Source: an uncultured Prevotellaceae bacterium
Lineage (GTDB): Bacteria > Bacteroidota > Bacteroidia > Bacteroidales > Bacteroidaceae
Assembly: GCA_902788605.1 (NCBI GenBank)
Contig: CADAKX010000002.1
Span: forward strand, 62,001 to 126,000
DNA: 64,000 bases
Direction of reading: 5' to 3'
In this document: positions 5,381-54,717 of the stretch, piece by piece
How positions within the stretch are numbered: the first letter of the stretch is position 1
Layout: each line of letters opens with the position of its first letter
Notes under the pieces: model-generated
What the model was told of the DNA's origin: nothing
What the model saw: the letters and a program-made list of their open reading frames with translations, nothing else
Databases searched by the model: none
Program-made: the position numbers and the translations under genes

Positions 5381-6172
5381 ATGAGGAAAATTTGTGAGCT
5401 GTTTTTATTAACGTTGATATTCGCTTCGTGCGGATGGAAGACGGGTGGCGAGGATGCTCCTCAATTGGAGGAGAATCTGGAGGCTAAGGCATTGCTGCAA
5501 GGCATCTGGATTGAGGATGAAACCGATGAGGTGTCATTTCGTGCAGAGGGAGATACCATCTACTATCCTGACTCCACGAGTCAGCCTGCTCATTTTATGA
5601 TTGTGAACGACTCGCTCTGGTTAGGCGAAGGTCGCTATGCCATCGTGAAGCAAACGGCTCATTTGTTCTTTCTGCAGAATCAAAACGGTGATGAGGTGAG
5701 GTACAGGAAGAGTGACTCTGACGAGGACTCACTGGCCTTTGTACATCAGAAGCCAGAGATTCTCTCTGTCTCGGAAGTTCTGAAGATGGACTCGGTGGTC
5801 ACTTTTGGTAGCGAGCGTTATCATTGGTATATTGCTGTGAATCCAACGAAATATCGCGTGGTGAAGACAACCTACAACAGTGATGGCGTGGGGGTGGACA
5901 ATGTATATTATGACAACATCATCCATGTGAGTCTTTACAATGGCTCTGTATGTCTGTTCTCGCGTGATTTTAAGAAACAGATGTTTGAAGACATGATACC
6001 AAAGAAATTCCTGGAACAGGCCATCTTGGGTAACATGCAGTTTGACCACGCGGATGCGCGTGGCTGCCATTTCAATGCCACTTTATGCATTCCTGATGGT
6101 GCCAGTTGCTATCTCGTGGATATCCTCATCGGAAAAGACGGACAGATTTCTATGAAACTGTTGGAGTATTAG
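5381..6172 (+). CDS. Putative lipoprotein, DUF4738-like
   Basis: 263 residues. A short hydrophobic leader ends in the lipobox-like FASC, so the mature protein probably begins at C17 and is lipid-anchored. The N-terminal part (LLQGIWIEDETDEVSFRAEG and a following Asp-Ser-rich beta region) resembles Bacteroidales proteins of the DUF4738 kind; that assignment is from memory and unverified. No catalytic motif is visible and the function is unknown. It starts 3 nt after the dehydrogenase scar, so it was probably the distal gene of a surface-polysaccharide operon led by rfbC. Its 3' end overlaps nudC by 4 bp, tail to tail. Confidence 0.7.
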   Translation: MRKICELFLLTLIFASCGWKTGGEDAPQLEENLEAKALLQGIWIEDETDEVSFRAEGDTIYYPDSTSQPAHFMIVNDSLWLGEGRYAIVKQTAHLFFLQNQNGDEVRYRKSDSDEDSLAFVHQKPEILSVSEVLKMDSVVTFGSERYHWYIAVNPTKYRVVKTTYNSDGVGVDNVYYDNIIHVSLYNGSVCLFSRDFKKQMFEDMIPKKFLEQAILGNMQFDHADARGCHFNATLCIPDGASCYLVDILIGKDGQISMKLLEY

Positions 6173-49445: not shown

Positions 49446-50135
49446 ATGCGTATGGAAAGAAAGTATCTATTCAGTCTGAGCATCCTCCTGGCTTTAGGTT
49501 TGATGCTGGCGGGATGTAAGCCTGCCAATGTTAATACGAAAACAATGGATGGCACGTTGGACGAGCCCTTTTCTCCCGATGAGACTATGGACGGATGCGG
49601 CGTCATGGTCAAGAATGGAAGCGTATCAACTATCTTCCCCCATATCCGCCACACCCGTGAGGTGCAGTCGAAATACAATGCCAAGACAGGCGACCTCTGG
49701 TTGACCAGTTCGGCGATGGAAGGTACGGGTGTTCGTGTGGAGTGGCTTCATCAGATTCGCTTTGGCGAGAACAAGACAGCATATGTAAAGACGCAGGTCA
49801 ACCCTTACGATGTACAGCAGGCCCTCTTGCAGCGTTTAGGCTACACCATCGAGGGCGAAACAATCACGCTCTATGATGGCGCCAAACTGTTGGCGACAGT
49901 CACCAACACCGTCGAGGATATGGGTGGCTTTGATGACGAACACCCTTTATGGATTGGTGAACAGCTGTACTATGATGTCAGTGGTGATGCCCCCAAGCTC
50001 ATCTTTGTTCCTGGTGTGAAGTTCACCACAGGCCTTGTCCTCATATACGACGACATGCCAGAACTCTCGGCTCCCATCACTATTGATGAAAACGGCTCGT
50101 TCACCATTCACGAAATCGGGGTGGTGGAAAATTAG
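49446..50135 (+). CDS. Putative lipoprotein of unknown function
   Basis: 229 residues. A signal peptide with lipobox MLAGC gives a lipid-anchored mature protein starting at C24. The mature part has mixed beta-rich segments (VRVEWLHQIRFGENKTAYVKTQVNPY, then KLIFVPGVKFTTGLVLIYDD) and no catalytic motif. Not recognised as a named family. It starts 7 nt after the relic stop. A second ATG two codons in is equally possible. Its 3' end overlaps the EamA gene by 4 bp, tail to tail. Confidence 0.7.
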   Translation: MRMERKYLFSLSILLALGLMLAGCKPANVNTKTMDGTLDEPFSPDETMDGCGVMVKNGSVSTIFPHIRHTREVQSKYNAKTGDLWLTSSAMEGTGVRVEWLHQIRFGENKTAYVKTQVNPYDVQQALLQRLGYTIEGETITLYDGAKLLATVTNTVEDMGGFDDEHPLWIGEQLYYDVSGDAPKLIFVPGVKFTTGLVLIYDDMPELSAPITIDENGSFTIHEIGVVEN

Positions 50136-51052
50136 TTTTTTCCTTTATTGATGATGTAGATACCAATTGCGGCGAGTCCTCCTGCAAGGGCGTATTTCGG
50201 ATGGAACGTCTCGCCAAGACAGAGACATGAGGTGACTGCACCAACTACGGGAATCAGCGAATTGTAGATTGCCACCTTCCCAACAGGATTCAGACTGAGC
50301 AGTTTGTTGTAGAGGGTGAATCCGACGGCAGAGATGGCAATGAGCAGCAATAAGCAGACGATGCCGAGCATGTTGATGTGGGGCAGCGTACCGCTAAACA
50401 ACAATCCGGGAATAATGAGCAATATGCCTCCGATGGTGAGGCCATAGCCCGTTCCCACGAAGACGTCTATCCGACGACTCAGCCCACGCGTCATCAGGTT
50501 CGAGAGTGCGCCACAGATGGCATTAAGGATGATCATACCGTCACCGAGCAAGGTAAAACGCCCACTTTCAGCCCCACCGAGATTCAATGCAAGAATGCCG
50601 CTGAAGCCTACCACACAGCCGAGCACTTTTCGTGTAGTCAGTCTGTCGCTCTTGAAACAGGCACATGCCAACAGCACCACGAGAAAGGTGCTCAGCGAGT
50701 TTAGAATAGCTGCCCGCGAACCTTCGCTGTGCGACATGCCGACATAGAAGAAGAAATAGTGGAGCGTGGTATTCATCAGCGCAAAGGCAAGGATAAACCA
50801 CCAGTCGCCTGTTTTGCCTGTTTTGAACGAACGTCCGCTGCTACGGGCAACGGATAGGACTATCAATCCAGCCACGGCAAAGCGGATGCCTGCAAACAGC
50901 ATCTTACTGCCCGTCATGTCCGCCGTGATGCCAAAGGCGCTGAATCCCACTTTAATCAGCGGAAAAGCCCATCCCCAGGCTATTGCAGCTGTCAGGGCAA
51001 ATACCACCACCCATACGGGGCGTTGGAATATGGATATTTTCGTTTGTTCCAC
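50132..51052 (-). CDS. EamA/DMT-family transporter
   Basis: 306 residues with ten hydrophobic segments in two EamA halves. The first half opens WVVVFALTAAIAWGWAFPLIKVGFSAFG and the second has ALSNLMTRGLSRRIDV and YNSLIPVVGAVTSCLCLGETF, which is the family's conserved C-terminal segment. Such proteins export amino acids or metabolites from the inner membrane; the substrate is unknown. The start codon is GTG; no in-frame ATG exists nearby. A TACCTTTG box lies on the minus strand at 51098-51105, 45 nt upstream. Confidence 0.9.
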   Translation of the reverse strand: MEQTKISIFQRPVWVVVFALTAAIAWGWAFPLIKVGFSAFGITADMTGSKMLFAGIRFAVAGLIVLSVARSSGRSFKTGKTGDWWFILAFALMNTTLHYFFFYVGMSHSEGSRAAILNSLSTFLVVLLACACFKSDRLTTRKVLGCVVGFSGILALNLGGAESGRFTLLGDGMIILNAICGALSNLMTRGLSRRIDVFVGTGYGLTIGGILLIIPGLLFSGTLPHINMLGIVCLLLLIAISAVGFTLYNKLLSLNPVGKVAIYNSLIPVVGAVTSCLCLGETFHPKYALAGGLAAIGIYIINKGKN

Positions 51053-51297
51053 TTGTTCTATTCTCTTTTTACCGTTTCTTTTATGCTAGCTCGACTGCAA
51101 AGGTACATATTTTCTCCGAATAAAATGTAAGAAAAATCTAATAACTGAGAAAACTCCTCGTTTTACTGCTACGCCATGTAGAACTTTTTCTTTGGCTATG
51201 GAGATTTTTTTTTATGGCTATGCCGTAATTTTAAGCACTTATGTCTGTTTCTTTTAAAGATAAAAATGTACGATTTGTTTATTTGCTCTGAATGCTG

Positions 51298-51409
51298 AAG
51301 TTATGCAAGTTATGCAAGTTATGCAATTATGCAATTAGGACATCTAGTTTTTTTTTACCTCTGAAGTTAGTCACTTAGTCACTTAGTCACTTTGGACATT
51401 TAGGTTTTT
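51298..51409 (+). repeat. Left arm of modular inverted-repeat array
   Basis: Two modules each begin GAAGTTA, carry three or more 8-bp tandem units (AAGTTATGC-type first, TTAGTCAC second), and close with GGACATnTAG and a T-run. The same modules occur reversed at 51574-51733. Confidence 0.9.
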
Positions 51410-51445
51410 ACTTTGATTTTGATTTCTTGTTTTTCCTAATTATAG

Positions 51446-51495
51446 AATTATTATATTATTATATATATTATAATATATATAATAATATAATAATT
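51446..51495. repeat. Perfect 50-bp palindrome of A and T only
   Basis: The 25 bases 51446-51470 are exactly the reverse complement of 51471-51495 with no spacer. It sits between the two repeat arms. Confidence 0.97.
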
Positions 51496-51573
51496 TAAAT
51501 ATAACATATTAACCATCTATCGTGGTCATTAACAAGAGGTGGTTTTTGAAGAAAGTCCCACCCGAACTGTATG

Positions 51574-51733
51574 TTCAAAAACCTAAATGTCCGAAGTGAG
51601 TAAGTGAGTAAGTGAGTAACTTCGGCATTTGCAAATGTCAGATGTCCAAAGTGACTAAGTGACTAAGTGACTAACTTCAGGGGTAAAAAACCTAGATGTC
51701 CTAATTGCATAATTGCATAACTTGCATAACTTC
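51574..51733 (-). repeat. Right arm of modular inverted-repeat array (with one extra module)
   Basis: Read on the minus strand: a TTATGCAA module, a TTAGTCAC module, then a third with TTACTCAC units not found in the left arm, each ending GGACAT. The extra module is closed by CCGAAGT/ACTTCGG. Confidence 0.9.
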
Positions 51734-51875: not shown

Positions 51876-53297
51876 ATGCAAGAGACACAGCGGACATATA
51901 TTGCCATCGACCTGAAGTCGTTTTACGCTTCGGTGGAGTGCGTGGATAGGGGGCTGGACCCGCTGACCACGAACCTGGTGGTGGCGGATGCCAGTAGGAC
52001 GGAGAAGACCATCTGTCTGGCGGTGTCGCCTAGTCTGAAGGCCTATGGCATCGGAGGGCGCGCAAGACTGTTCGAGGTGTATCAGAAAGCGCGAGGCGTG
52101 GACTTTATTATCGCGCCGCCTCGGATGGCCCACTATATCGAGGTGAGCAGCAGGGTGTATAGCGTCTATCTGAAGTATATCGCTCCTGAGGATATCCATG
52201 TCTATAGCATCGACGAGGTGTTTATGGATGTCACGGCCTATCTTGGTACTTACAAGATGACGGCCCACGAACTGGCTATGACGATGATACGCGACGTGCT
52301 GAAACAAACGGGTATCACGGCTACGGCTGGCATCGGCACGAATATGTATCTCTGCAAGGTGGCGATGGATATTATGGCGAAGAAGATGCCTGCTGATAAG
52401 GACGGCGTGCGTATTGCCGAACTCGATGAGATGTCGTACCGCCGCGAACTGTGGGACTATCGCCCCATCACCAAGTTCTGGCGGGTGGGCAAGGGTATTG
52501 CCAACAAACTGGCGCTGCATGGCATGGAAACGATGGGGCAGATTGCGCGCATGTCGGTTCATAATGAGGAACTGCTCTACAGACTCTTTGGCGTCAATGC
52601 CGAACTGCTGATAGACCATGCCTGGGGCTGGGAGCCGTGCACCATCGAGGCCGTGAAGGCGTATCGGCCTGAGACTAACTCGTTTAGTAGTGGGCAGGTG
52701 TTGCAGGAACCGTATGACTTTCAGAAGGCGCGTGTGGTGATACAGGAGATGGCTGAAGGCATGGCACTTAATCTGGTGTCGAAACGCATGGTGACAGACC
52801 AGATGGTGCTGACTGTAGGCTATGATGTCGAGTGTCTGACTCGTCCTGAGATACGCGAAAAATATCATGGCGAGATTGTCACTAACTATTACGGAAAGCC
52901 TGTGCCCAAGCATGCTCACGGCACGTCGAACTTCGACAAGCCCACGTCGTCGTCGCGCCTGATGATGAATGCTGCTGCAGAACTCTTTGACCGACTGGTT
53001 AATCCTGACCTGCTTATCCGCAGGATGAACATCTCGGTCAATCACGTGGTGCCTGAGTCAACTGTTGTCTCGCAGCATGAGGACCCCCAGCAGTTGGACT
53101 TGTTTATGGACTACGAGGCATTGGAGAAACAGAAACAGGAGGAACAGGCCCGTATGGACAAGGAGCGCCGCATGCAGGAGGTGCAACTGAAAATCAAGCA
53201 GCGCTTTGGCAAGAATGCCATCCTCCGTGGTCTCAACTACTCTGAGGGGGCCACAGCCAAGGACCGTAACAAACAGATAGGAGGACATAAGGCGTGA
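51876..53297 (+). CDS. Y-family DNA polymerase (UmuC/DinB-like)
   Basis: 473 residues. The catalytic Asp of YIAIDLKSFYASVE is D12 and the SIDE motif has D113 and E114, so the metal site is complete. A thumb, helix-hairpin-helix and little-finger region follow, and QQLDLF (405-410) is a beta-clamp binding motif. A charged helical tail reaches residue 473, beyond the usual DinB length. Its immediate context (a YolD-like gene 45 nt downstream) resembles the UvrX/UmuC polymerases of Firmicutes plasmids and phages more than housekeeping DinB. It inserts opposite damaged bases. The -7 box TAACTTTG ends 36 nt before the ATG. Confidence 0.9.
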   Translation: MQETQRTYIAIDLKSFYASVECVDRGLDPLTTNLVVADASRTEKTICLAVSPSLKAYGIGGRARLFEVYQKARGVDFIIAPPRMAHYIEVSSRVYSVYLKYIAPEDIHVYSIDEVFMDVTAYLGTYKMTAHELAMTMIRDVLKQTGITATAGIGTNMYLCKVAMDIMAKKMPADKDGVRIAELDEMSYRRELWDYRPITKFWRVGKGIANKLALHGMETMGQIARMSVHNEELLYRLFGVNAELLIDHAWGWEPCTIEAVKAYRPETNSFSSGQVLQEPYDFQKARVVIQEMAEGMALNLVSKRMVTDQMVLTVGYDVECLTRPEIREKYHGEIVTNYYGKPVPKHAHGTSNFDKPTSSSRLMMNAAAELFDRLVNPDLLIRRMNISVNHVVPESTVVSQHEDPQQLDLFMDYEALEKQKQEEQARMDKERRMQEVQLKIKQRFGKNAILRGLNYSEGATAKDRNKQIGGHKA

Positions 53298-53300
53298 GGA

Positions 53301-53342
53301 ATGGTTAAGGGTTAAAGATTAATGGTTAAAGGTTAAAGGTTA

Positions 53343-53346
<4 letters not shown>
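53301..53346 (+). repeat. Short tandem repeat of GGTTAAA units
   Basis: Five to six variants of a 7-bp GGTTAAA/GGTTAAT unit fill the gap between the polymerase and the YolD-like gene, reaching into its start codon region. Confidence 0.75.

Positions 53347-54717
<1,371 letters not shown>

Follow-up and report, generated by a model that had tools for sequence, protein, structure and literature searches.

The locus considered here raises two linked questions: what a large inverted repeat built of short tandem units does between two genes, and what keeps its two arms alike. The window (the whole 64,000-nucleotide stretch analysed) holds this array between an EamA-family transporter gene and a Y-family DNA polymerase gene, both of which are transcribed away from it (Table 1).

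Layout of the window array

The array (51297-51733) consists, as the original prediction stated, of five modules with about three 8-bp units each, two modules reading rightward and three leftward, and the three unit types, TTATGCAA, TTAGTCAC, and TTACTCAC, are the ones it named. Small corrections concern module B' (GGACATCTGACATTTGC), which lacks the T-run, and module A, whose repeat period is partly 9. The claim that left and right copies of a module agree held for the A/A' and B/B' pairs (98% complementarity over 48 and 49 nt, respectively), but not for C', which has no left partner bearing its own unit and is 91% complementary to B over 47 nt. Two features were absent from that description, a perfect AT palindrome between the arms and a leader-like sequence to the left of the array. 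When the array was folded as single-stranded DNA, a check that had been proposed for this stretch, the energy was −133.1 kcal/mol, compared with −33.7 kcal/mol (sd 4.3) for 100 shuffles (z = −23), which is far beyond chance.

Table 1. Positions of the array modules and neighbouring features in the window.
Feature	Position	Strand	Remarks
EamA-family transporter gene	50132..51052	-	left neighbour; PF00892
Leader-like sequence, ~80 bp	51153..51232	-	77% to C10 copy
Module A	51297..51353	+	rightward: GAAGTTA, TTATGCAA-type units, GGACATCTAG, T-run
Module B	51363..51409	+	rightward: GAAG, TTAGTCAC x3, GGACATTTAGG, T-run
Perfect 50-bp AT palindrome	51446..51495		between arms of the array
Module C'	51577..51623	-	leftward: TTACTCAC x3, GGACATTTAGG, T-run
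Module B'	51642..51678	-	leftward: TTAGTCAC x3, GGACATCTG; without T-run
Module A'	51685..51733	-	leftward: TTATGCAA-type units, GGACATCTAGG, T-run
Y-family DNA polymerase gene (impB/mucB/samB family)	51876..53297	+	right neighbour; PF00817, PF11799

The leader-like sequence resembles the stretch that lies elsewhere between the promoter and the start codon of HU-HIG genes (PF18291), and no HU-HIG gene follows it in the window. It has relatives at three other places in the same genome, and its copies stand beside arrays on contigs C2, C10, C21, and C60; on C60, an HU-HIG gene comes next. The sequence is conserved in the window and at L009 5510-5600, L010 5251-5338, and L029 8869-8956; an imperfect inverted repeat is visible in it by eye, and at two sites the leader persists where the HU-HIG gene is absent. 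The element is possibly a structured 5' leader, and an HU-HIG gene may have been lost at the window site. No gathering-level Rfam match was found in the window, the one weak match (E 0.64, below gathering) falling outside the array, and a search of the window for tRNA genes returned none. Directly after the polymerase gene (53300-53351), there is a 7-bp tandem repeat with the consensus AATGGTT.

The original prediction was to be abandoned if related genomes held no copies with the same frame and the orthologous gap showed no conservation. The search of related genomes was run and copies proved abundant, which counts against abandoning it; the gap is not conserved, which counts for it, a tandem-armed inverted repeat being present in 0 of 29 polymerase/EamA loci fetched from relatives. 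Three of these loci (L279, L290, and L293) have inverted repeats of another kind. Among the matches listed, the polymerase and EamA genes of relatives were not adjacent, and the nearest two lay ~2.5 kb apart (G106).

Related arrays in the genome and the genus

The source genome (3.26 Mb, 90 contigs) contains further arrays on C10 (three module pairs), C21 (one pair), and C60 (one pair), and a lone module on C83. The 25-nt arm of the window palindrome recurs unchanged in the palindrome of the C10 array (L009 5201-5250). There are 17 PF18291 matches in this genome, 12 of which were inspected: arrays were seen upstream of those on C6, C66, C33, C46, C38, C17, and C60, no clear array upstream of those on C3, C53, C7, and C34, while the upstream sequence on C72 was too short.

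The association was followed in relatives using the best 80 of 564 HU-HIG loci, 58 of which had 700 bp of upstream sequence. A strong inverted repeat was found upstream of 46 of these 58 genes, whereas 174 dinucleotide shuffles gave none and 47 downstream stretches gave 2. The frequent order is array, promoter motif TAnnTTTG (which we take to be the Bacteroidetes-type promoter motif), leader, and HU-HIG gene. In 50 parsed arrays, the loop between the arms measures 72-183 bp (median 137) and in 37 cases contains a perfect palindrome 16 bp or more in length, as opposed to 0 of 50 shuffled loops; TAnnTTTG occurs between the array and the ATG in 49 of the 50, but in only 8 over the same length upstream of the array. 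Examination by eye of HU-HIG loci from other genera revealed tandem-unit arms in 0 of 28.

Dozens of intergenic sites in genomes of the genus have the same architecture, near HU-HIG genes and unrelated genes alike. A census with a three-unit pattern gave a match in 53 of 348 genomes; since a reversed control pattern produced more matches than the census pattern itself, the counts alone are no evidence of enrichment. We think that other octad arrays explain part of the reversed-control matches. Among 20 census loci, chosen from genomes that hold several loci of one code, 18 were without an HU-HIG match at 1e-5, and the neighbouring genes, judged by eye, resemble those for malate dehydrogenase, ClpB, polynucleotide phosphorylase, and alanine dehydrogenase, among others. 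An HU-HIG gene as the defining neighbour, suspected from the 46 of 58 loci above, was therefore rejected.

Any gap between divergent genes should contain outward promoters. Around 72 arrays, TAnnTTTG was sought within 220 nt: on the right, 52 of 71 had it facing outward and 12 of 71 inward; on the left, 40 of 70 had it facing outward and 8 of 70 inward. These are consensus matches only, and the right-hand count is favoured because HU-HIG set the orientation of many of the loci. Where the outward motif is present, its median distance from the array is 88 bp on the right and 110 bp on the left.

Five multi-module arrays were examined, and only the window copy is fully nested. In L343, L344, and L345, two types of module are arranged as a-b, then a'-b' across the loop, and the C10 array has the order X-Y-Z, then Y'-Z'-X'; in neither arrangement is full nesting possible. 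One large hairpin is thus not the general function. The window copy is an enlarged array: it would combine three types of site, next to a leader of the kind found elsewhere ahead of HU-HIG genes.

Several other features were observed near arrays. L116 (G094:C38) contains four inverted repeats within 9.5 kb whose tandem-unit arms differ in sequence. In L154, a second, shorter tandem array (5658-5778) with AAGTTAAAAGG-type units in both orientations and GGACAT lies between the HU-HIG gene and a small peptide ORF. Such hydrophobic ORFs follow the HU-HIG gene in L084 (5361-5477, 38 aa) and L154 (from 5813, 30 aa); both have a cysteine near the end, and the L084 peptide weakly matches DUF6486 and the NCBIfam smalltalk family. 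SAM-I/IV riboswitch matches (L080 934-1046 and L083 1095-1213) lie near arrays of one genome. The array family is widespread and apparently undescribed, no description of it having been found in a literature search of open-licence papers. The arrays mark a large class of promoter-proximal elements.

Arm agreement and switching of the unit code

Units vary between arrays, while the two arms of one array agree. In the commonest class, an arm can be written as (TT W NN CA S)n followed by a dinucleotide and GACA, so that each octad has a constant TT...CA frame, a variable triplet (WNN), and a C/G position (S). We collected 45 arrays by the frame, ignoring the triplet, and found that the majority triplet was the same on the left and on the right in all 45; paired operators would likewise be expected to repeat a single site sequence in each cluster. 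Compared unit by unit, triplet agreement between the arms was 0.985, as against 0.137 when right arms were shuffled among arrays (maximum of 2000 shuffles, 0.356). The junction dinucleotide behaved similarly (0.893 compared with 0.470 shuffled; 42 arrays), but the C/G position did not: its agreement was 0.770 compared with 0.738, a level reached in 277 of 2000 shuffles. The same contrast between triplet and C/G position was seen in an earlier, overlapping set of 17 arrays. Covariation along the stem thus involves the triplet and the junction, but not the C/G position. Within arms, all three triplets were identical in 88 of 102 cases (0.9% expected if they were independent), and the remaining 14 arms were mixed. 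Copying of one arm from the other, or selection for pairing, should hold the C/G base as firmly as the adjacent triplet; since this was not seen, both readings are disfavoured.

Comparison of closely related arrays revealed a change of units in both arms. L108 (G193) and L109 (G098) share two left-hand genes (one of them hisG, by eye) and have nearly identical flanks; the identity of their loops is 94% over aligned columns, or 82% relative to the longer loop. Both arms of one array are built of TTTCCCAC and both arms of the other of TTATTCAC, and the junction goes from TG to AT, again in both arms. Two C/G bases also differ, and the right arm of L109 is one unit shorter; the TT and CA frame bases are unchanged throughout the unit blocks. 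In L150 and L152, which are 89.6% identical over 568 bp, the units likewise differ in both arms. L162, L171, L186, and L195 are 79-81% alike (five pairs among the matches listed), with wholly different units. Among the 17 array pairs whose loop identity reached 80% or more, the code was the same in 11 and different in 6.

Distant loci of one genome share the triplet far more often than loci of different genomes: in 102 census loci from 53 genomes, sharing was found in 47 of 74 same-genome pairs compared with 351 of 5074 between-genome pairs, and 5000 permutations gave a mean of 5.8 and a maximum of 16 for the within-genome count. It was also incomplete. Of the 30 genomes with several loci, 15 were uniform and 15 mixed; several codes occur in the source genome, G083, G417, and others, and in genome bin G098 the loops of L102 and L109 are 94% identical while their triplets differ. 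The mixed genomes and the L102/L109 difference imply either several readers per genome or a locus-specific one. Within-genome loops of the same code are 97% identical in G037 and 94% in the G079b/d pair, while the other compared pairs lie at 71-92% by the longer loop and 83-93% in aligned columns, with G369c/d at 94%; part of the sharing may therefore be due to duplication.

Three accounts of the code were set aside. The first 80 loci suggested that every locus carries a unit peculiar to it, a view that the census overturned by showing that loci of one genome frequently have the triplet in common. A local template for the unit was unconvincing, arm 10-mers recurring within their own locus in 13 of 50 cases compared with 130 of 750 for the arms of other loci. 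The adjacent HU-HIG protein, the obvious candidate for code reader, does not clearly track the code: near-identical N-terminal domains stand beside different triplets in L127 (TTC), L131 (ACT), and L133 (ATT), and the column associations are scattered. Of 400 permutations, 2 reached the association of column 103 with the triplet, 4 that of column 30 with the first base of the triplet, and 1 that of column 102 with the code, all uncorrected for relatedness or column number. By eye, the C-terminal tails of the HU-HIG proteins look low-complexity or Ig-like.

Candidate explanations and known systems

We favour, with a probability of about 0.5, the reading that the array represents a pair of operator-site clusters, recognised by a sequence-specific protein that changes its specificity over evolutionary time. 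The pattern fits six binding sites for one protein: all are alike at the bases that would be read, the C/G base floats, and all sites change together. The reading draws on the architecture and spread of the arrays, on arm agreement at the triplet and not at the C/G position, on the change of units in both arms, and on within-genome sharing, all of which were observed; nearness to promoters enters through consensus matches only. The array would be a cis-regulatory DNA element of two inverted clusters, usually with three binding sites each, placed mostly ~70-180 bp apart across an AT-rich palindrome and typically some 60-140 bp from outward-facing promoters. One sequence-specific protein may bind both clusters, probably bridging them into a loop, rather like lambdoid OL/OR, and would thereby control transcription. 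In the commonest class, the protein would recognise the triplet within the fixed TT...CA frame without distinguishing C from G at the last position, and a shift in its specificity would drive the units of both arms to a new triplet in place. Among the three guesses of the original prediction, the protein-binding array is thus the one preferred, and of conversion and selection, between which it left the agreement of the arms, the data favour selection.

The arms could instead evolve in concert with no reader at all, slippage homogenising each arm and template switching or ectopic gene conversion copying arms or loci. Tandem and inverted repeats are hot spots of such processes, the within-genome sharing of triplets fits conversion or duplication between loci, and mixed arms do occur (14 of 102). 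Copying, however, should carry along the C/G base of every 8-bp period, which agrees between arms no better than in shuffled sets, and the differences between the L108 and L109 unit blocks are confined to triplets, junction, two C/G bases, and one lost right-arm unit, with TT and CA kept. The constant frame and the proximity to promoters would also be left unexplained, and we consider this account doubtful. The idea of a structural element, a cruciform or RNA hairpin in which arm pairing is the sole constraint and a structure-binding HU-like protein the ligand, gains from the strong folding of the window copy and the central palindromes, and from the preference of Porphyromonas gingivalis HU PG0121 for a 77-bp inverted repeat, bulges, and loops (PMC3969353). 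Yet the C/G position is free of pairing constraint, pairing needs no likeness of units within an arm although the units are alike, the module orders of L343-L345 and C10 cannot nest fully, and in HU-HIG loci the array stands upstream of the promoter motif. The long cruciform or structured RNA that had been proposed is therefore unlikely.

A non-autonomous mobile element, the remaining early guess, would be a MITE- or BIME-like transposable element with internally repeated ends bound by a transposase encoded elsewhere. Copies are indeed dispersed and intergenic, and Foldback/Galileo elements are described as having internally repetitive ends. L154 contains a 3.5-kb region (an HU-HIG cassette and a transposase-like gene) where, in L321, the flanking genes lie ~26 bp apart, and HU-HIG cassettes may thus be gained or lost; of the 19 other loci set against L154, L321 alone gave a match to its left gene, and no target-site duplication was established at this candidate empty site. 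The ends and interior of a MITE move together, but in closely related arrays, including one pair with the same neighbour genes, loop and flanks stay as they are and the two ends change. Beside the C10 array, a 447-aa gene on the minus strand (L009 3648-4991, start ~30 bp from the array) resembles a REP-associated tyrosine transposase and carries the motif LMPDHLHAV; it has no Pfam match and only a weak NCBIfam match (NF047646), far below the cut-off. The REP/RAYT origin suggested by this gene and by four PF01797 matches in the source genome, three of them over the cut-off, was rejected after a scan for the REP-type transposase motif, which was found in 1 of 80 HU-HIG loci, 0 of 48 control loci, and nowhere in the window. 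Transposition is, on balance, quite improbable as the explanation. Still harder to credit is a dedicated enzymatic process, for example RNA- or array-templated, that rewrites the units of both arms in place; were it true, each genome or locus would possess a matched, renewable recognition code, and bacteria a system for the coordinated reprogramming of dispersed regulatory sites.

If a single protein does read the arrays, as the operator reading has it, the genus supplies many natural repeats of one process, in which a regulator alters what it recognises and its sites follow; if no protein does, something rewrites matched repeats in place, which would be stranger still. In either case, the three-base code of each array, compared among close relatives, provides a read-out for finding the factor.

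Among the closest known arrangements is that of the lambdoid OL/OR operators, two clusters of three sites bridged by one repressor, whose sequence is shared within a phage and differs between immunity types. The arrays likewise have two three-site clusters of shared sequence. The lambdoid repressor gene is adjacent and tracks its operators, whereas the adjacent HU-HIG gene does not clearly track the code, and the array clusters are tandem octads around an AT palindrome. REP/BIME elements are also dispersed intergenic inverted repeats, associated with RAYT transposases; the arrays lack a consistent transposase link, and their arms are tandem octads. Within the Bacteroidales, P. gingivalis HU PG0121 prefers its own 77-bp inverted repeat over a control 77-mer (PMC3969353), so that there too a large inverted repeat is tied to an HU-family protein. 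That repeat occupies one locus at the 5' end of a capsule operon and encodes an antisense RNA, and the available portions of its descriptions (PMC3969353, PMC8757827) present it without tandem octads or coordinated switching. The BrickBuilt MITE of P. gingivalis (PMC4596501) resembles the arrays in being dispersed and always intergenic, with tandem repeats, inverted-repeat ends, and reported promoter activity; it is, however, made of 23-nt repeats in a single block that has small inverted ends, whereas the arrays are two inverted blocks of octads that vary by locus and genome.
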